Origin: Rubrobacter calidifluminis
GTDB taxonomy: Bacteria > Actinomycetota > Rubrobacteria > Rubrobacterales > Rubrobacteraceae
Direction of reading: 5' to 3'
Length of the DNA: 64,000 bases
NCBI RefSeq assembly: GCF_028617075.1
Contig: NZ_JAQKGV010000004.1
Span: 1-64,000 of the forward strand
The notes beneath the pieces were generated by a model, which searched no databases, was not told the DNA's origin, and saw nothing but the letters and a program-made list of their open reading frames with translations. The position numbers and the translations under genes are program-made. Shown in pieces: positions 28,699 through 39,274 of the stretch (the stretch's first letter is position 1; each line of letters opens with the position of its first letter).

Positions 28699-29868
28699 CT
28701 AGGAAGAGTCCGCGGGGCCGAGCCAGACTCCTTCGATCCTGCCCGGAGCCCACCCTTCGGGGGCTTCGGTGGAACGTTGCCAGCCGCCCTCCATCCTGCG
28801 CCGGGTCTCCTCCCAGCTTCGCACGCCGCTCGTCGTGTCGTGGGCCTCGACGCAGCAGGCCCCGGCGGCGCAGGCCGCGGTGATCGCTTCTTCGGGGTCC
28901 ATCCCGAGGAGCATCCCGAACAGGAGGCCGGCGTAGGCCGCGTCGCCCGCTCCCACCGCTCCCCGTACCTCGACCTCGAAGGTGGAGCCCCAGAGTTCCC
29001 GATCCGCCCACCGCGAGCCCATCCCGGAGAGCAGCCGCCCGGATCTTGCAAGCCGGGCTTCGGGGGCCGTGCGCAGGTAGAGTCCCCGCCTGCCGCATTT
29101 GATGCCGGCCACGGCGGCGCCCATCGCCAGGATGTCTTTGCCGAGCGCCCGGATCTCCTCGGTAGGGGCCGCGGCGAGGGGGGCGGTGTCCGAGAGGGCG
29201 ATCTTCCTGTATCTCTCGGGGCCGAGCATGACGAGCGCTTCCTCCAGGCTCGGGACGAAGACGTCGACCGCGGGGAGTGCTTCCTCGAGGATGGCTCTCC
29301 AGTCCACCCGGCCGGCCTCCGAGGAGAGGTCGGGGAAGCAGGTGTCGAGCGAGGTCGTGGTCCCGGATCTCCGGGCGCGCTCGAAGAGGCGTCCGAGCTC
29401 GCCGCGGTCCTCGTAGAAGCGGGGCAGAACCTGCGGGTAGCCGAAATGCAGGATGTCCGCCGGCGGGAGTGGATCGGGAAGGTCGTCCGCGGAGAAGTCG
29501 GCGCTCACCCCGGAGTAGTGCAGGAACATCCTGTCCTCGTCCGGGGGGCTCAGGATGAGCGTGTAGGAGGTCTCGCCGGCGGGGGAGACGATGAGCGATT
29601 TGGAGAGTCCCTCCCCCGAGGACTCCAGATGCCGGCGCACCAGCTCGCCCAGAGGATCCCTGCCGATGCGGGCGACGAGCGTCACCTCCGCCCCGAGCCG
29701 GTGCAGCGAGAGGCCGGTGTTCGAGACCGAGCCGCCGGTCGAGATCCTCATCGGTCCCGCGCCCACCATCGTGCCGGGCACGAAGTCGAAGCGGCCGGAC
29801 AGCTCGGGGATGAGGTCCAGGCACAGGTGCCCCGCGACGATGACCCGCCCTCTGCGCCCGGCATCCAT
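28699..29868 (-). CDS. PfkB-family carbohydrate kinase
   Basis: A 389-residue ribokinase/PfkB-fold kinase. The N-terminal VIVAGHLCLDLIPEL, the glycine-rich substrate lid ISTGGSVSNTGLSLHRLG and the catalytic GAVGAGDAAYAGLLFG motif (Asp as base) are present. It phosphorylates a sugar or sugar derivative; the specific sugar is not clear. It is longer than usual, with a C-terminal tail (EETRRRMEGGWQRS) after the core. It is the last gene after the sugar ABC genes, separated by a strong hairpin, so its substrate may come from the imported sugar. Confidence 0.85.
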   Translation of the reverse strand: MDAGRRGRVIVAGHLCLDLIPELSGRFDFVPGTMVGAGPMRISTGGSVSNTGLSLHRLGAEVTLVARIGRDPLGELVRRHLESSGEGLSKSLIVSPAGETSYTLILSPPDEDRMFLHYSGVSADFSADDLPDPLPPADILHFGYPQVLPRFYEDRGELGRLFERARRSGTTTSLDTCFPDLSSEAGRVDWRAILEEALPAVDVFVPSLEEALVMLGPERYRKIALSDTAPLAAAPTEEIRALGKDILAMGAAVAGIKCGRRGLYLRTAPEARLARSGRLLSGMGSRWADRELWGSTFEVEVRGAVGAGDAAYAGLLFGMLLGMDPEEAITAACAAGACCVEAHDTTSGVRSWEETRRRMEGGWQRSTEAPEGWAPGRIEGVWLGPADSS

Positions 29869-29878
29869 ACCCGCTGAT

Positions 29879-29914
29879 GATAGAGGTTGCCGCCTCCGGG
29901 CGGCAACCTCTATC
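29879..29914 (-). terminator. 16-bp hairpin between permease and kinase genes
   Basis: Arms GATAGAGGTTGCCGCC and the exact complement close a 4-nt loop; the right arm touches the permease stop codon. On the minus strand no T run follows, so it is more likely an attenuator or a 3' stabiliser of the ABC-transporter mRNA than a full intrinsic terminator. The kinase start codon lies 11 bp beyond it. Confidence 0.6.
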
Positions 29915-30756
29915 TAACCCTTCACGCCCCCTGCGGTGAGCCCCTGCACCAGGTAGCGCTGCAGCGCCAGAAATCCCGCGACGACCGGGATGCTCACGAC
30001 GATCGCGGCGGCCATCAGCTGGTTCCAGTAGACGTTGGACTGGCTGGCGTAGTCCCTGAGCCCGATGGCGAGGGTGCGGGTGGCGTTGGTCGTGAGCACC
30101 GAGGCGAAGAGAACCTCGCCCCAGGCGGTCATGAACGCGAAGACCGCGACCGCGACGATCCCGGGCAGGCTCACCGGGATGAGGACCCTGAAGAGCGCCC
30201 CGAGCGCCGTCGAGCCGTCTACCATCGCCGCCTCTTCGAGCTCGCGCGGGATCGAGTTGAAGTACCCGACGAGCATCCAGATCGAGAGCGGCAGCGAGAA
30301 GGTTAGGTAGGTGATGATCAGCCCGACGCGCGAGCCGTAGAGGTGCACCCCGAAGGTCTGGTCGATGTTGACGAAGATGATGAAGAGCGGCAACAGGAAC
30401 AGGATGCCGGGGAACATCTGGGTCGAGAGGACCGTGAGCCGGAACGGGTCCCTCCCGAAGAACCGGTAGCGGCTTACCGCGTAGGCGGCCAGGATGGCGA
30501 CGATGACCGAGATCACGGTGGCGCTCACGCACACGATCGCGCTGTTGATGAAGTAGTGCGCGAGCGGGACTGTGCTCCATATCTGGACGTAGGGCTCGAA
30601 GGTTATACGCGAGGGGATCCAGTGGAACGCCGACTGCACGTCGCCGAGCGGTTTGATCGAGGAGATCACCACCGTGTAGAGGGGGAAGGCCGTGATCAGG
30701 GTGAAGAACGCAAGCCCTATCACCCGCAATACCCTGTAGAACCTTTCTTCACGCAT
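29914..30756 (-). CDS. Sugar ABC transporter permease (MalG/CebG-like)
   Basis: A 280-residue permease with six membrane segments and the EAA loop ELEEAAMVDGSTALGALFRVLIPVSLPG, cut here as EEAAMVDGSTALGALF. The C-terminal LVQGLTAGGVKG is typical of MalG-type carbohydrate permeases. It pairs with the permease at 30749-31711 and overlaps it by 8 bp. No ATPase gene is nearby, as in CebEFG and similar actinobacterial systems that share one MsiK-type ATPase, so the ATPase is expected elsewhere. The solute-binding protein and regulator point to beta-glucoside oligosaccharides. Confidence 0.92.
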   Translation of the reverse strand: MREERFYRVLRVIGLAFFTLITAFPLYTVVISSIKPLGDVQSAFHWIPSRITFEPYVQIWSTVPLAHYFINSAIVCVSATVISVIVAILAAYAVSRYRFFGRDPFRLTVLSTQMFPGILFLLPLFIIFVNIDQTFGVHLYGSRVGLIITYLTFSLPLSIWMLVGYFNSIPRELEEAAMVDGSTALGALFRVLIPVSLPGIVAVAVFAFMTAWGEVLFASVLTTNATRTLAIGLRDYASQSNVYWNQLMAAAIVVSIPVVAGFLALQRYLVQGLTAGGVKG

Positions 30757-31711
30757 TCTCTTCGCTCCCTACCCTGAGAAGCCTCACGTAGACGACCGAG
30801 ACGATGAACAGGAAGATCAGCAACAGCGTGGACATGGCCGCACCGAGCCCGAAGTTCAGATCCACGAACGAGTTGACGTAGATGTGCAGCGAGAGGAGGT
30901 CGGCTGCGCTGGGGGGTGACTGCCCGAAGAGGATGTAGGGGGTGTTGAAGTCGTTGAAGGTCCACAGGAACAGCACCAGCACCACGACCGTGCTTACGGG
31001 GCGGATCTGGGGCAGCGTTATCGAGCGGAACTGCCGCCACCTCGACGCGCCGTCCACCGCCGCGGCTTCGTAGAGATCCTGCGGGATGTTCTGCAGCGCC
31101 GCCAGGACAAGCAGAAAAGCGAACGGCCACGACCTCCACAGCGCGGTCATCACCAGACTCCAGAACGCCTTGCCCCCGATGAGCCAGAACGGTGGGTTTT
31201 TCAAGATGTGCAAATCGTCCACCAGAAGCGTGTTGATCGAGCCGGTGTTCTGCTGCAGCATGAACTCCCAGGCGATGACCGCGACGTAGATCGGCAGGGT
31301 GTAGGGGATGAGAAACAGCGTCCTGAACCATCCCCGTCCCCGGAACTCGCTGTTCACCAAAAGCGCCGCCGCGACCCCGAAGCCCCACGACCCCGCCACC
31401 ACGAGCACGGTGTAGGCGAGCGTGATCAGGAACGAGTGCACCAGCGCGCTGCCTATGGCCCCGTGGGTGTTTAAGCCTATCCTGAAGTTCTCGAAACCGA
31501 CGAAGGGTGCCTGGCTCCAGTTTCGGATGTAGAGCGCGGTGAGCTTGAGGAAGCTTATGACCACCCCGAAGACCATCGGGACTATGTGGATCAGAAGCTC
31601 GAAGACGACCGCCGGAACGAGCAGCAGGTACGGGAACATCTGCGGCCGGAGCCAGCGGCGCCTCCTCCCGACCGCCGGCCTGGCCCCCGGCTCGCTCTTG
31701 CGCTCGCTCAT
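30749..31711 (-). CDS. Sugar ABC transporter permease (MalF/CebF-like)
   Basis: A 320-residue permease with six membrane segments after a basic N terminus (RRRRWLRPQM). The EAA loop is DLYEAAAVDGASRWRQFR followed by TLPQIRP. MalF-type signatures such as NDFNTPYILF are visible. It forms a heterodimeric channel with the MalG-like partner and receives sugar from the lipoprotein encoded 33 bp upstream. Membrane location. Regulated together with the binding-protein gene, probably through the LacI regulator. Confidence 0.92.
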   Translation of the reverse strand: MSERKSEPGARPAVGRRRRWLRPQMFPYLLLVPAVVFELLIHIVPMVFGVVISFLKLTALYIRNWSQAPFVGFENFRIGLNTHGAIGSALVHSFLITLAYTVLVVAGSWGFGVAAALLVNSEFRGRGWFRTLFLIPYTLPIYVAVIAWEFMLQQNTGSINTLLVDDLHILKNPPFWLIGGKAFWSLVMTALWRSWPFAFLLVLAALQNIPQDLYEAAAVDGASRWRQFRSITLPQIRPVSTVVVLVLFLWTFNDFNTPYILFGQSPPSAADLLSLHIYVNSFVDLNFGLGAAMSTLLLIFLFIVSVVYVRLLRVGSEENA

Positions 31712-31744: not shown

Positions 31745-33103
31745 CTACGCCCCACCTCCTGCGGCCATCTTCTGGCTGGCCGCCGCAAGCTGAGATTTCA
31801 CATCGGAGGTGCCGACCCGTCCGGTCGCCGCCTTCCCGAAGAGCGTCTTTACCGCCCCGCCGACCAGCGTCTCCATCTGCCCCTCATCCGGCACCAGCGG
31901 CATCGGCGCGGAGTGGTTGGCGTAGACGTCCTGGAACACCCTGAGATTCTCGGTGTGGAAGGCCGGATCGCTTGCTGCCTCCTTGTTCACCGGCAGCGAG
32001 CCGAACTGCTGGTTGAGGTAGACCTGCGTCTTCCTGTCCGTCATGAACCTGACGAACTGAAGAGCGCCCTTCCTATTCTGGGTGTTCTTGAAGATGGAGA
32101 TGTTGATCCCGGCGGTGTGCGACATGATCGGCTTCCCTCCGGGGGGCAGCGGCTTGGGGATGGGCATGTAGGAGGTGCCGTACTGGCTCTCTTTCATCCC
32201 GTAGCTCTTGAGGTTGGTCATGATGTTGTTCTGCCAGATGAGCATCGCGGCCTTGCCTTTGGCGAAGTCCGTCGGCGACTGGGTGCCGGTGCCGTACTGG
32301 GCATCCTGCGGAGCTACGATCCTGTCTTTGTCTATGAACCCGACGTACTGCGCGACCCCCCTCACCACCCCTGGAGAGTCGAAGGTGGGCTTGTTGCCCT
32401 TGAAGAGCGAACCTCCCTGCTGCTGGCCGAGGATGAAGGCCCAGTGCGCGTTCTCGGTGATGCTCGCCCCTTCGAGCGCGAACCCCCACTGTTTCGGCGG
32501 CTTGGTGAGCTTCCTGGCGACCGCGACGAACTCGTCCCAGGTCCTCGGCGGGCTCTTTATCCCCGCCTGCTCGAACATGGCCTTGTTGTAGAACAGCCCG
32601 TAGGCGAGACCGTACAGCGGTACCGACGGATACGGCTCGTGCATCCCGGAGGTGTGGTACGCGGTCTCTATGAACTTGTCCTTGCCCCCGATGGCACCGA
32701 GCGCACCCTGGTCGAACGGGAGGAACGCCCCGGTCTGCTGGAAGGTGGGGGACCAGGTGTTCCCGATGTTGAGCACGTCCGGTCCCTGGCCGCTGGAGAT
32801 CGCCGTCGTGATCCTGTTGAACAGATCCGGCCACCCTATGACCTGCAGCTTGACTTTGATCCCGGTCTTCTTCCTGAAGTCGCTTATCGCCTTGCTGAGG
32901 ATCCTGCGGTCGTCCTGCAGGGTGGGTGCCTGGTTGCTCGCCCAGTAGGTGAGGGTCTTGCCGGCCTTGCCGCCCCCACCCCCGCTGCTCCCACCTGAAG
33001 ACTGCCCGCCGCCGCAACCGGCGAGCCCCACCACCGACGCCCCGGCGAGCGCTCCACCTCCCGCCTTCAGAAACTCCTTGCGCGAGATACCTCTCCCGTT
33101 CAT
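31745..33103 (-). CDS. Sugar ABC transporter solute-binding lipoprotein (CebE-like)
   Basis: A 452-residue family 1 extracellular solute-binding protein. The signal has a twin-arginine-like SRKEFLK and a lipobox ending VVGLAGC, with the mature protein starting at Cys near residue 29 followed by a Gly/Ser-rich linker. The ISSGQGPDVLNIGNTW, GLAYGLFYNKAMFEQAG and WDEFVAVARKLT blocks are typical. It captures an oligosaccharide outside the membrane. The operator context suggests cellobiose or cellotriose, though the binding pocket cannot be judged by eye. ATG follows AAAGGAGGAG. C-terminal end is the Ala/Gly tail AAGGGA. Confidence 0.9.
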   Translation of the reverse strand: MNGRGISRKEFLKAGGGALAGASVVGLAGCGGGQSSGGSSGGGGGKAGKTLTYWASNQAPTLQDDRRILSKAISDFRKKTGIKVKLQVIGWPDLFNRITTAISSGQGPDVLNIGNTWSPTFQQTGAFLPFDQGALGAIGGKDKFIETAYHTSGMHEPYPSVPLYGLAYGLFYNKAMFEQAGIKSPPRTWDEFVAVARKLTKPPKQWGFALEGASITENAHWAFILGQQQGGSLFKGNKPTFDSPGVVRGVAQYVGFIDKDRIVAPQDAQYGTGTQSPTDFAKGKAAMLIWQNNIMTNLKSYGMKESQYGTSYMPIPKPLPPGGKPIMSHTAGINISIFKNTQNRKGALQFVRFMTDRKTQVYLNQQFGSLPVNKEAASDPAFHTENLRVFQDVYANHSAPMPLVPDEGQMETLVGGAVKTLFGKAATGRVGTSDVKSQLAAASQKMAAGGGA

Positions 33104-33132: not shown

Positions 33133-33161
33133 ATAATAACGCAAATTGAATTATTAAATCA
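33133..33161 (-). promoter_or_regulatory. Candidate promoter of the sugar ABC operon
   Basis: On the minus strand, TATTAT (33133-33138) stands 17 bp after TGATTT (33156-33161) in a distinctly AT-rich patch between the LacI gene and the binding-protein gene. The -10 is close to consensus and the -35 is weak. No copy of the GGGAGCGCTCCC operator occurs here, so control by LacI may work through read-through from the lacI promoter. Confidence 0.35.
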
Positions 33162-34220
33162 GGGACTGTCGCGGGAGGATATACCTCCGGGGCTCTTTTC
33201 AGGTTGTTGTGCGCACCCGCAGGATCGGCGGAGGAGGAGGCGGGCGGTGAGCAGGCGGCGGATGCCTCCTCCGTCGCGGGAGCGTTCCGTGATATCCAGG
33301 AGGGTGCGGACGGCCTCGCGGCCGAGGGCGCGGGTATCCTGGAAGACGGTGGAGAGGGGAGGGGTCGTGCTCTCGCCCTCTTCGAGGCCGTCGAAGCCGA
33401 TGACGGCGACGTCTTCGGGGGTTCGGAGGCCGGCCTCGTGCAGGGCGCGCAGGGCGCCGAAGGCCATCGGGTCGTTGGCGCAGAAGACGGCGTCGGGGTG
33501 GTGTGGCAGGAGGGAGCGCATCGCCCGGTAGCCGCCGGAACTGGTGAAGTCCGAGTGGCGGACGAGGTTTTGATCCGGCATGAGGCCCGCGTCGAGCAGG
33601 GCGGAGACGTAGCCGCCGTAACGGTCTATGGCGGGGATGACGTTGGCGGGGCCGCAGATCTTGGCTATCCTGCGCCGCCCGTGCTGGAGCAGGTGCGCGA
33701 CGGCCTGGCGGGCGGCCTCGCGGTTGTTCACGTCGACGAAGCTTATCTCCGGGTGGTGGGGGTGGCGGCCGACGAGGACGAAGGGGAAGTCGTCCTCGCA
33801 GAGCCGGGCGACGACGGGATCGTCGACCACGCTCGAGGCTATGACGATCCCGTCGAGGTGTCTGCCCCGGATCACACGCTGATAGAGCCGCTCAATGTTG
33901 CGCTGGTCTTCGGTGGTGTCCATGAGCAACATCAGGTTGTGGTCGGCCTCGTTGCACGCCCCGACCGCACCTTCGATCAGGCGGGGGAAGAAGGGATCGG
34001 AGAAAACGCTCCCGACCGCCCGCGGGATCAAAAGCCCGAAGATCCTCGTCCGCCTCGAAGCCAGGCTGCGCGCCGCCGCGTTCGGATGGTAGCCGTGCTC
34101 CTGGATCACCGCCTGCACCCGCCGCCTCACCTCGTCGCTCACCCGCGCATCGCCGTTCACCACCCGCGAGACCGTCGACCTCGATACTCCGGCCCTGCGC
34201 GCTATGTCCTCCAGGTTCAT
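33159..34220 (-). CDS. LacI-family regulator of the beta-glucoside locus (CebR-like)
   Basis: A 353-residue repressor. Residues 1-55 form the LacI helix-turn-helix and hinge (LEDIARRAGVSRSTVSRVVNGDARVSDEVRRR, shown only in part; ARSLASRRTRIFG hinge), followed by a periplasmic-binding-like sugar domain (FSDPFFPRLIEGA; VFCANDPMAFGALRAL; AVIGFDGLEEG). The C terminus has an unusual CGC motif (RRSCGCAQQ). ATG follows AGGTGGGGAG. An operator at 34230-34251 lies just before its start, so it likely represses itself as well as the divergent glucosidase operon, with release by an imported sugar. Confidence 0.9.
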   Translation of the reverse strand: MNLEDIARRAGVSRSTVSRVVNGDARVSDEVRRRVQAVIQEHGYHPNAAARSLASRRTRIFGLLIPRAVGSVFSDPFFPRLIEGAVGACNEADHNLMLLMDTTEDQRNIERLYQRVIRGRHLDGIVIASSVVDDPVVARLCEDDFPFVLVGRHPHHPEISFVDVNNREAARQAVAHLLQHGRRRIAKICGPANVIPAIDRYGGYVSALLDAGLMPDQNLVRHSDFTSSGGYRAMRSLLPHHPDAVFCANDPMAFGALRALHEAGLRTPEDVAVIGFDGLEEGESTTPPLSTVFQDTRALGREAVRTLLDITERSRDGGGIRRLLTARLLLRRSCGCAQQPEKSPGGISSRDSP

Positions 34221-34229
34221 CTCCCCACC

Positions 34230-34251
34230 TTTCTGGTAGCGCTCCCAGAAA
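34230..34251. promoter_or_regulatory. LacI/CebR-type operator O1 (near lacI)
   Basis: A 22-bp palindrome with arms TTTCTGGTAGC and GCTCCCAGAAA and one mismatched pair. Its core GGTAGCGCTCCC is one base from the TGGGAGCGCTCCCA box bound by CebR in Streptomyces. It lies 10 bp before the lacI start codon, where a bound repressor would block transcription or ribosome access. Confidence 0.75.
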
Positions 34252-34284
34252 ACAACCCCTTAATACCATCGTGGGAGCCGCTCC

Positions 34285-34306
34285 TTTGTGGGAGCGCTCC
34301 CACAAA
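34285..34306. promoter_or_regulatory. LacI/CebR-type operator O2 (near glucosidase)
   Basis: A perfect 22-bp palindrome with arms TTTGTGGGAGC and GCTCCCACAAA. Its inner 14 bp equal the known CebR box TGGGAGCGCTCCCA. The centre is 55 bp from that of O1, about five helical turns, which allows looping. An imperfect third copy (TGGGAGC, one extra base, GCTCC) sits at 34272-34284. The site is 60-80 bp upstream of the GH1 start, a position expected for repression. Confidence 0.85.
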
Positions 34307-34331
34307 AGTCATCGACAGTGTAAAGTGTTAG

Positions 34332-36124
<1,793 letters not shown>

Positions 36125-36125
36125 G

Positions 36126-37196
36126 ATGGGTGGCTGGTACCCGATAAAGCTCGAACCCCACCTCCGCACATACGCCTTCGGCGGGCGCATGTTCTGCGAG
36201 CGGCTCGGCCGGGAGGGCCTCCCGGAAGAAGACCTCGCCGAGAGCTGGGAGATAAGCGACTACCGCGACACCACCGGGCGGGTGGTTAACGGTGCCCACG
36301 CGGGGCGCACTTTGCACGAGCTTATCGAGGAATTCCCGGATGAGCTCGTCGGGGAGGGCTGGCGCGGGCCGCACTTCCCGCTCCTTCTCAAGTTCCTCGA
36401 CGCCTCCGGAATGCTTCCCGTCCACCTGCACGCGGACGACGAGACCGCGCGCAGGAAGTACGGCGAGCCGAACGGCAAGACCGAGGCGTGGCACATCCTG
36501 TGGTCGGAGCCGGGGGCGAGCGTGCTCGCCGGGGTAAGGGAGGGCTTCTCGCGCGAGGAGCTCGCGGACGCCCTGTGGAGAGGGGACTACGACGCGGTGA
36601 TGCTCCGCCACGGGGTGCGGCCGGGCGACACCGTCTACGTCCCCGGCGGGGTGCTGCACTCCTTCGGGCCCGGCATGCTCGTCTACGAGGTGCAGCAGAC
36701 CTCCGACCTCGGGCAGTTCGCGAGCCCTTACGACCTCTACGGCAACCCGCTGGACGAGAAGACCCGCCGCCGCAACATCGAGGAGGTGCTGGACGAGCTG
36801 CGGACGGACGTCCGTCCGCGTCCGAACCCGGGGCTCACCGTCCGGGAGGGAGGGAACACCCGCACCTTCTGCTGCGCCGGGCCGCACTTCGCGCTGGAGA
36901 GGTGGGAGCTCGCGGAGGAGTGGACCGAGCCCGCACATCCGCAGAGGTTCGTCGCGCTCACGGTCGTCGGGGAAGGGGCGGTGCGCATCGAGTACGAGGG
37001 CGGGACGGAGCTCCTGGGAAGGGCTACCTCCTGCATCCTTCCGGCCGCCCTCGGCGCGGCGCACCTCGTGCCGGAGGGGCGGACGGTCGTGCTCGCCTCG
37101 TACGTGCCGGACCTCGAGCGGGACGTGGCCGGGCCGCTGCGGGAGGCGGGGTGCCCTGAGGGGCAGATCTCGGCCCTCGGGGAGGTGGTGTTCTGA
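36126..37196 (+). CDS. manA: Class I mannose-6-phosphate isomerase
   Basis: A 356-residue cupin-fold zinc enzyme that interconverts mannose-6-phosphate and fructose-6-phosphate. Zinc ligands are visible in LPVHLHADDETARRK and GKTEAWHILW, with the C-terminal His region in VYVPGGVLHSFG. It starts one base after the VOC stop. Alongside a PfkB kinase it could feed sugars from glucosides or mannosides into glycolysis, or supply mannose-6-phosphate for GDP-mannose and mannosylglycerate, a solute known in Rubrobacter. This second use is inferred from the likely organism. Confidence 0.9.
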   Translation: MGGWYPIKLEPHLRTYAFGGRMFCERLGREGLPEEDLAESWEISDYRDTTGRVVNGAHAGRTLHELIEEFPDELVGEGWRGPHFPLLLKFLDASGMLPVHLHADDETARRKYGEPNGKTEAWHILWSEPGASVLAGVREGFSREELADALWRGDYDAVMLRHGVRPGDTVYVPGGVLHSFGPGMLVYEVQQTSDLGQFASPYDLYGNPLDEKTRRRNIEEVLDELRTDVRPRPNPGLTVREGGNTRTFCCAGPHFALERWELAEEWTEPAHPQRFVALTVVGEGAVRIEYEGGTELLGRATSCILPAALGAAHLVPEGRTVVLASYVPDLERDVAGPLREAGCPEGQISALGEVVF

Positions 37197-37209
37197 GGGG
37201 AGGTTCACT

Positions 37210-38187
37210 CTGGGACGCGTAGTCGCGCTGGGCGAGGTGGTCGCGGACGTCTACCGGGGGGAGTCCTCATCACCGGTCGAGCTCCCATTCGTCGCCCGAC
37301 CCGGCGGGGCCCCGGCGAACGTGGCCGTCGCCGCATCCAGGCTCGGTTGCCCGGCCGCTTTCGTGGGCGGCGTCGGGAAGGACCTCTTCGGGGACTTCAT
37401 CCTGCGGGCGCTCGAGGCTGAAGGGGTGGACGTCTCGGGGGTGGTGCGGCAGGAGCCGCCTGTACGGACCTCGCTCGCGTTCGTCGAGATCTTCGAGGAC
37501 GGAGACAGGGAGTTCACCTTCTACCGCACCGCCCCCGCCGCCGACGAGCTGCTGCGGGAGGAGGACGTCCCGCGGGATCTCGTCTCGGGAGCCTCGTTCG
37601 TCAACTTCGGGAGCATCCCCCTGATCGAAGAACCCGTGCGCTCGGCTACCTTCCATGCGGCCCGCCTGGCCGGCGAGGCCGGTGTGCCGGTGGCCTTCGA
37701 CGTGAACTTCCGGGCCCATCTGTGGCGCGACCCGGAGGTTGCGCGCCGGACGGTGTGGGAGATGGCGGGCCTGGCCTCGATCGTGAAGCTGAGCGGGGAC
37801 GAGCTGCGACCGCTGCTCGGCACCTCGGACTGCGAGGAGGCCGCCGCGATCCTCCTCGGGCGCGGGGTCCGGATGGTCCTCGTCAGCCTCGGCGGGGAGG
37901 GAGCATTCTACGCCACCCCGGCTTTCCGGGGGCGGGTCCCCGCGTTCCCGGTCGAGGTGGTGGACGCGACCGGGGCGGGGGACGCCTTCCTCGCGGCCGT
38001 GCTCGTGCACCTCGCGGAGGACGGGGTGAGCCTCTCGGAGGAGGGGTCGGTGCGCGAGGCGGTGCGGCGGGGAGCGGCGGCGGGCGCGCTCGCCTGCACG
38101 GGCTACGGGGCGATGGGGACGCTCCCGACCCGCGAGGAACTGGAGCGGTTTTTGTCCTCGGGGCCCGCTAGCGTCTCACCCGGCTGA
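37210..38187 (+). CDS. PfkB-family sugar kinase (fructokinase-like), probable CTG start
   Basis: About 325 residues. The N-terminal family motif GEVVADVY, the lid GGAPANVAVAASRLG, and the catalytic DATGAGDAFLAAVL are clear. The closest type is fructokinase or 2-keto-3-deoxygluconate kinase. The first usual start in frame is GTG 37237, which would cut off RVVALGE, part of the conserved first strand. CTG 37210, preceded by GGGGAGG with 7 bp spacing, gives LGRVVALGEVV and matches the family. Its 3' end overlaps the convergent NIF3 gene by 20 bp. Operon with manA fits conversion of fructose to fructose-6-phosphate. Confidence 0.87.
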   Translation: MGRVVALGEVVADVYRGESSSPVELPFVARPGGAPANVAVAASRLGCPAAFVGGVGKDLFGDFILRALEAEGVDVSGVVRQEPPVRTSLAFVEIFEDGDREFTFYRTAPAADELLREEDVPRDLVSGASFVNFGSIPLIEEPVRSATFHAARLAGEAGVPVAFDVNFRAHLWRDPEVARRTVWEMAGLASIVKLSGDELRPLLGTSDCEEAAAILLGRGVRMVLVSLGGEGAFYATPAFRGRVPAFPVEVVDATGAGDAFLAAVLVHLAEDGVSLSEEGSVREAVRRGAAAGALACTGYGAMGTLPTREELERFLSSGPASVSPG

Positions 38188-39274
38188 CCCCGACCGGGAC
38201 GTCCACCAGATTGGCGAGCCGGTTCGCCAGCGGTTCGAGTGAGGGTAGCTCTGTCGGGGCGTGTCCGGCGTCTATCGCCGCGAGGCCTGAAGAATCGGCG
38301 AGCAGCGCGTCGTGGTAGTCGAGGTCGCCGGTGACGTAGGCCTGCGCGTCCGAGGCTGCAACCTCGTGGATGAACGTTCCCCCGGAGCCGCCGAGGACCG
38401 CGACGCGTTCGATCTTCTCCCCGGGGTCCACCAAAAGCCGGGCCGAAAATCCCAGAGAGGTCGAGACGTGCTCCGCGAGCTCCGGGGCGGACATCGGGCG
38501 CGGGAGGCGTCCGATCCTGCCGTAACCGCACCCCGGCGGGTGGCCTTCGATCGGGTAGAGGTCGAGCGCGGGTTCCTCGTAGGGGTGGGCGGCTCGCGCC
38601 TCGGAGGCGGCGCGGGCGGCCAGGTGCGCCGGGACTACGGTCTCGAGCCTCACCTCGGAGACCGCCTCGAGCCGTCCGGCCTCGCCCGCGTAGGGGCTGG
38701 TGTCCTCCCCACCCAGGAAGGTCCCGGTGCCGGCGGTGCGGAAGGTGCAGCGGGTGTAGCCGCCGATCACGCCGGCCCCGGCCCGCGCGAGCGCCTCCGC
38801 GACCTCCTCCACGGCCTCCTCCGGGACGAAGACGACCAGCTTGTTCATGCGACCGCGCGGCGAGAGGACCTCGAGCGGCTCTTCGAGCCCCAGTGCCCGT
38901 GCGAGCGCGACGGAGACCCCGTCCGGGGCCGCGTCGTAGTTGGTGTGCGCGGCGTAGACGGCGATCCCGGAGCGGACGGCGCGTGAGATGAGGCTCCCGG
39001 GATAGCGGGAGGTGTCCACCCGGTCCAGGCCGCCGAAGATCAGGGGGTGGTGGAAGAGCAGGAAGTCCGCGCCGCTCTCCTCCGCCTCGTCGAAGACCTC
39101 GGGGAGCGGGGTGAGCGCGACCAGGACCCGCTCGACCTCTTCTTCCGGGCTCCCGACCTGGAGCCCCGGGTTGTCCCACTCCTCGGCGAGCGCCGTGGGG
39201 GCTATCTCCTCCATGGCCCGTGCGATATCTCTTACAAGCGTCACCATCTCCTCCCCTGTAGAATTCGCTCCCAT
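38168..39274 (-). CDS. NIF3-like dinuclear metal-centre protein (YqfO type)
   Basis: A 368-residue NIF3/DUF34 protein with the inserted middle domain found in YqfO. The metal-site motifs are DFLLFHHPLIFGG (His pair), YAAHTNYDAAPDG (His, Asp), and GDLDYHDALLADSSG near the C terminus. The inserted domain spans about residues 130-240. The fold binds two metals and has been linked to GTP cyclohydrolase I-like reactions, but the function is unproven. ATG overlaps the divergent start of the next gene by 2 bp, so the two share a promoter region inside each other's coding sequence. Confidence 0.9.
   Translation of the reverse strand: MGANSTGEEMVTLVRDIARAMEEIAPTALAEEWDNPGLQVGSPEEEVERVLVALTPLPEVFDEAEESGADFLLFHHPLIFGGLDRVDTSRYPGSLISRAVRSGIAVYAAHTNYDAAPDGVSVALARALGLEEPLEVLSPRGRMNKLVVFVPEEAVEEVAEALARAGAGVIGGYTRCTFRTAGTGTFLGGEDTSPYAGEAGRLEAVSEVRLETVVPAHLAARAASEARAAHPYEEPALDLYPIEGHPPGCGYGRIGRLPRPMSAPELAEHVSTSLGFSARLLVDPGEKIERVAVLGGSGGTFIHEVAASDAQAYVTGDLDYHDALLADSSGLAAIDAGHAPTELPSLEPLANRLANLVDVPVGVSRVRR

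Follow-up and report, generated by a model that had tools for sequence, protein, structure and literature searches.

Genes and paired palindromes of the locus

The window, by which we mean the whole 64-kb (64,000-nt) stretch of DNA that was analyzed, carries a predicted sugar uptake and hydrolysis locus in which a LacI-family repressor gene (lacI; ATG at 34220, − strand) and the genome's sole GH1 gene (TTG at 34365, + strand) point away from each other (Table 1). Orthologues of the repressor (97%) were found in only two other genomes of the genus among the matches listed (60 genomes, 36 of them from the same family), and in the other 33 family genomes no match among those listed exceeded 39%.

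Table 1. Features of the locus, with positions in the window.
Feature	Position	Strand	Remarks
PfkB-family sugar kinase	28699..29868	−	End of leftward unit; putatively co-transcribed
ABC permease (G)	29914..30756	−	
ABC permease (F)	30749..31711	−	
ABC sugar-binding protein (SBP)	31745..33103	−	
LacI-family repressor	33159..34220	−	353 aa; recognition residues R14-S15-R19
O1	34230..34251	.	22-bp palindrome TTTCTGGTAGCGCTCCCAGAAA, 1 mismatched pair; putative second operator
Box inside O1	34234-34247		TGGTAGCGCTCCCA
Claimed third copy	34272..34284	.	TGGGAGCCGCTCC; unsupported
O2	34285..34306	.	Perfect 22-bp palindrome TTTGTGGGAGCGCTCCCACAAA; putative main operator
Box inside O2	34289-34302		Exact 14-bp TGGGAGCGCTCCCA
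Leftward promoter-like pair	34317..34344	−	TTGACT-16-TACACT, 9/12; predicted start near 34310
GH1 beta-glucosidase	34365..35705	+	TIGR03356, 613.6 bits vs cut-off 478.5
Glyoxalase/VOC-family protein	35690..36124	+	Predicted start
ManA-like isomerase (manA)	36126..37196	+	Neighbor of frcK throughout family
PfkB-family fructokinase-like protein (frcK)	37237..38187	+	

The spacer between lacI and the GH1 gene holds two palindromes, O1 and O2, whose centers are 55 bp apart. Specifically, O1 ends 9 bases from the lacI ATG, while 62 bases separate the end of the O2 box from the GH1 start. The preliminary description had reported such a pair, with an exact 14-bp box inside a perfect O2 and a single differing pair in O1, and the coordinates bear it out: all 22 bp of O2 are paired and O1 departs by one pair. 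Such a pair goes far beyond chance: of 20,000 spacers of 144 bp simulated with a first-order Markov model, 3 contained a perfect 22-bp palindrome and 0 contained two near-perfect ones (each with ≤1 mismatched pair). The leftward promoter-like pair scores at a level of which 0.0 are expected in shuffles; the best rightward candidate, ahead of GH1, is TCGACA-18-GAAAGT (8/12) and is less clear than the leftward one.

Downstream of GH1, manA and frcK have a wider history. We found manA matches in 17 of the 23 family genomes searched (20/37 overall) and manA beside frcK in 14 of the 15 family loci read, with GH1 alongside in this genus alone. As read from these neighborhoods, the sugar locus appears to have been placed next to an older manA-frcK block. 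Because the two genes are neighbors family-wide, mostly without GH1, they say little about the sugar, and mannose as a clue drawn from them was rejected as weak. NIF3 accompanies manA-frcK (window 36126-39274) in at least 10 of the 15 loci. In two other family genomes, 52% relatives of the PfkB kinase at 28699-29868 lie ~3.5 kb from manA, behind long genes (L231:11798-12946 and L233:12336-13484).

Conservation, recognition residues and distribution of the box

Every base of O2 (22/22) and of the O1 core (14/14) is identical across the three genomes of the genus, which also share the 55-bp spacing. Two of the 22 bases of O1 vary, in its flank and in one genome. O2 sits within a 73-base block (34279-34351) that is invariant throughout, and the conservation of O2, not being peculiar to an operator, is therefore supportive rather than proof. 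It could be that O2 alone is functional and O1 a weak site or a relic, given the mismatched pair in the O1 core and the varying flank, but the O1 core is unchanged in all three genomes, and we consider this rather unlikely. Between O1 and O2, 8 of 33 bases vary, and four of these (34271, 34272, 34274 and 34278) fall at the left side of the stretch that had been put forward as a third imperfect copy. This stretch has an odd, unpaired center; its right half, GCTCC, is kept in the three genomes. A third operator at this position is not borne out, and we rejected it for want of conservation.

We examined whether box and recognition residues go together among 151 LacI relatives collected from the loci of several relative searches. 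These included a search with named contigs (592 stretches, of which the best 80 of 455 relatives were kept, such that nearer relatives may exist) and phylum searches of an even sample of 396 genomes out of a larger set. Upstream counts cover the 150 relatives with enough upstream sequence; the 151st, in L136, is R-S-R and box-bearing, and its upstream sequence is too short. A box with 0-1 mismatch lies ≤400 bp upstream of 13/16 genes for R-S-R proteins (3 of the 16 belong to the host genus), 20/54 for R-G-R, 1/38 for R-A-R and 0/42 for others. Of the three R-S-R proteins with no upstream box (L027, L074 and L197), L197 has a downstream one, and in many R-G-R cases the gene is distal within a transporter-GH1 operon, which puts the box further off. 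When boxes ≤400 bp up- or downstream are counted, the values are 41/71 for R-S-R and R-G-R combined, 1/38 for R-A-R and 3/41 for others (first group vs the rest, Fisher p 5.7e-13, one R-Q-R row ungrouped); with kinship considered, 2 to 3 phylogenetically independent contrasts carry the association, and significance is lost.

Since R-S-R residues and the box co-occur among LacI relatives, and the cores are conserved, the adjacent LacI very probably uses O1 and O2 as its operators. The palindromes lie between regulator and target and fit the recognition helix, as in a local LacI repressor with twin operators, and the earlier suggestion that the sites are placed to affect both divergent units is supported by the joint occurrence of residues and box and by cores kept in 3/3 genomes.

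A palindrome with the half-site TGAGAGC (TGAGAGCGCTCTCA) showed a different distribution, occurring ≤400 bp away in 10/38 R-A-R cases (for example, L076, L084, L088 and L128) vs 4/71 R-S-R and R-G-R cases (p 0.005). The pattern reads as if the third half-site base depended on the middle recognition residue. PMC3377646 reports TGAGAGCGCTCTCA in front of a LacI gene as well as two GH16 genes, perhaps endo-1,3-beta-glucanases, and the occurrences given there are in line with the R-A-R pattern.

A genome search for the box, proposed in the preliminary description, returned one exact TGGGAGCGCTCCCA in the 3.09-Mb genome, namely O2. With ≤1 mismatch there are three sites: O2, O1 and C3:150353, the last inside a predicted gene. 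Boxes with ≤2 mismatches show no excess (23 genome sites vs 42 for a reversed-pattern control), nor are boxes with ≤3 mismatches enriched in the window (8 found vs 8.46 expected). Apart from O1 and O2, 17 of the 21 sites with ≤2 mismatches lie in predicted genes (11/13 and 6/8); the remaining four (L005, L015, L238 and L239) are outside the genes called by a simple caller, some being overlapped by open frames, and around them no tRNA was found and, judged by eye, nothing with the look of a sugar gene. We therefore rejected a genome-wide regulon, the sites being rarer than in the reversed control and mostly within predicted genes, and the switch looks confined to its own locus. The genome's only GH16 gene and only GH5 match have no box in the stretches read (nearest matches with 4 and 5 mismatches, respectively).

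The frame with the GH5 match (L236, G000:C1 about 353421) adjoins a gene that resembles one for a sugar ABC permease. Elsewhere, a predicted 411-aa gene carries the palindrome TGCGAGCGCTCGCA (L013:1497-1518; G000:C6:49043) 15 bases inside its start; this is possibly a site of another LacI protein.

Regulator lineage, transporter and inducing sugar

The best solved-structure match of LacI is 5ysz (2.8e-63), which we take to be T. fusca CelR. In a tree of 77 proteins, LacI falls on a long branch (1.08) within a group of 15 rows that includes proteins of Chloroflexota and others (97/92). A distinct CebR/CelR clade of 53 rows (100/99) contains 5ysz; joining the LacI of the genus to these 53 rows is 5.3 log units worse and, with an AU p of 0.125, is not rejected. 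Identity to box-bearing actinobacterial relatives is ~40-46%. The locus shares an adjoining LacI-family gene, an intergenic 14-bp TGGGAGCGCTCCCA and a GH1 gene beside the box with CebR/CelR regulons, and TGGGAGCGCTCCCA is a documented CebR/CelR site (PMC4898821, PMC5332605 and PMC3377646). We filed the locus as a predicted twin-operator system in which a LacI repressor, itself a putative CebR at most, employs the CebR box.

The enzymes around the ten R-S-R relatives that share LacI's tree group outside the genus, as seen in a scan of selected neighbor genes, are varied. GH149, a 1,3-beta-glucan phosphorylase family, occurs near four: L092, L093 and L095 score above the NCBIfam cut-off, and L140, clipped by the locus end, scores below it. 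GH94 occurs near three (L135, L137 and L138, with GH130 also at L137), and GH16 (L094) and GH116 (L136) near one each; no enzyme was found on the short contig of L139. PMC5827456 describes GH149 clusters of Proteobacteria in which an ABC transporter is accompanied by a gene for LacI or AraC.

We then compared the transporter with known ones. In L111, a ceb-like actinobacterial operon, the box stands upstream of the SBP gene and again 13 bases before GH1, the same placement that PMC5332605 lists for cebE-bglC. Its permeases are 25-28% identical to those of the window, and its SBP gives no match. Likewise, 8bfy, a chain named as cellobiose-binding, is absent among the 60 matches listed of the window SBP's 133 PDB hits, whereas the SBP of the GH149 locus L095 matches both 5ixp and 8bfy. 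On these comparisons, the predicted window transporter is not CebEFG. The best PDB match of the window SBP is 5ysb, Lin1841 (5.4e-33), whose ligand is presumably beta-1,2-glucan; the match is too distant to decide for or against sophorose as a ligand. Relatives of the window transporter at 67-84% (L127 in G012) lie ahead of a GH2 gene with mannosidase domains. A divergent ROK protein also stands alongside the transporter and the GH2 protein in L127.

A short beta-glucoside is the probable inducer, be it cellobiose, laminaribiose or another; the operator sequence by itself does not tell which sugar induces. The cellobiose-type inducer of the preliminary description is weakly supported. GH94 near 3/10 of the nearest R-S-R relatives speaks for it, the family including cellobiose phosphorylases and so keeping cellobiose among the candidates. 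If LacI were a true CebR/CelR responding to cellobiose or cellotriose, the identical box, the 5ysz match, the GH1 gene within the locus and an AU p that tolerates the joined tree would all be explained; the branching outside the CebR/CelR clade (97/92 vs 100/99), the R-S-R rather than R-G-R residues and a transporter unlike CebEFG count against it, and we regard this as possible but doubtful. To a similar degree, a beta-1,3-gluco-oligosaccharide such as laminaribiose is a tentative candidate, to which the GH149 and GH16 genes near the tree-group relatives point, but GH149 is lacking beside the window LacI, the transporters differ and the genome's one GH16 gene is boxless. A beta-mannoside would fit the L127 arrangement and the position of manA downstream of GH1, but manA and frcK are neighbors with or without GH1 and the GH1 model is that of a beta-glucosidase, which leaves this sugar improbable.

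Taken together, one might suppose that the CebR box does not mark cellobiose but serves as a common operator for a broader range of R-S-R and R-G-R LacI proteins in Actinomycetota and Chloroflexota, with ligands having moved among beta-1,4-, beta-1,3- and other beta-glucans. This locus would then represent a non-CebR lineage that, with an unrelated transporter, may sense laminaribiose or another non-cellulosic beta-glucoside. We put the chances of this broader view at somewhat short of even. That ligand specificity in the LacI family arose independently in different branches is stated in PMC4052901, and the box has been used for predicting actinobacterial cellobiose/cellulose regulons (for example, PMC4898821). 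If regulators that lie near genes for beta-1,3-glucan or other beta-glucosides do use the identical box, such predictions would need the regulator's clade in addition to the site.

Proposed switch and comparison with known systems

From the observed sites, their conservation and the residue fit, we infer binding, promoters, repression and an inducer as follows. O1 and O2 would be two operators of the adjacent LacI, forming a switch that acts locally on a single locus for the uptake and hydrolysis of a beta-glucoside (probability roughly 0.75). When no sugar is present, LacI dimers would occupy both sites. With the leftward start near 34310, O2 would span about +5 to +26 and so cover the predicted start of the lacI-SBP-permease-permease-pfkB transcript, while also lying upstream of GH1. 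O1, just ahead of the lacI start, would act as a second block and an autorepression site. A short beta-glucoside imported by the transporter would release LacI, both divergent units would be expressed and GH1 would then cleave the imported sugar. The result would be a compact two-operator switch of an ordinary local kind that is easily testable.

Two independent LacI dimers would suffice for this, with looping unnecessary. The preliminary description had held that the spacing allows repression by looping, and two sites ~5 turns apart, together with box pairs ≤200 bp apart in 26 of 103 loci (counting the window and both of its genus copies), could suggest a DNA loop between O1 and O2 through a LacI tetramer. 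However, 55 bp corresponds to 5.24 turns at 10.5 bp/turn, and the box-pair spacings in relatives range from 26 to 188 bp in many phases. Looping LacI proteins of the E. coli lac type tetramerize through C-terminal heptads; unlike in these, no such heptads were seen by eye at the C-terminus of the window LacI. We judged looping very unlikely.

A literature search that was not keyed to the organism found no publication on this locus, which is not a claim of its absence from print. Among the loci compared, the closest in transporter and enzyme are actinobacterial SBP-permease-permease-GH1 operons from a single genus, probably Streptomyces (L128, L129, L131 and L132; SBP 47-49%, permeases 53-67%, GH1 50-54%). 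Unlike the window, L128 adjoins a ROK protein as well as a LacI with R-A-R residues, L129 and L131 adjoin a protein of 646/654 aa with no Pfam match and L132 adjoins a 440-aa gene, and no box at 0-1 mismatch was found within the 19-kb stretches of these four. The regulators near GH149, GH94, GH116 and GH16 (L135-L140 and L092-L095) resemble the window LacI in tree group, in R-S-R residues and in a box ≤400 bp upstream of lacI, but differ in their enzymes and transporter, at 42-50% identity. Compared with CebR of Streptomyces and CelR of Thermobifida fusca, the window LacI has R-S-R residues, groups outside their clade (which is not decisive), adjoins a transporter other than CebEFG and appears to govern one locus only. 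It shares with them the same 14-bp palindrome, membership of the LacI family, R-x-R residues and the predicted control of an ABC sugar transporter together with a GH1 gene.
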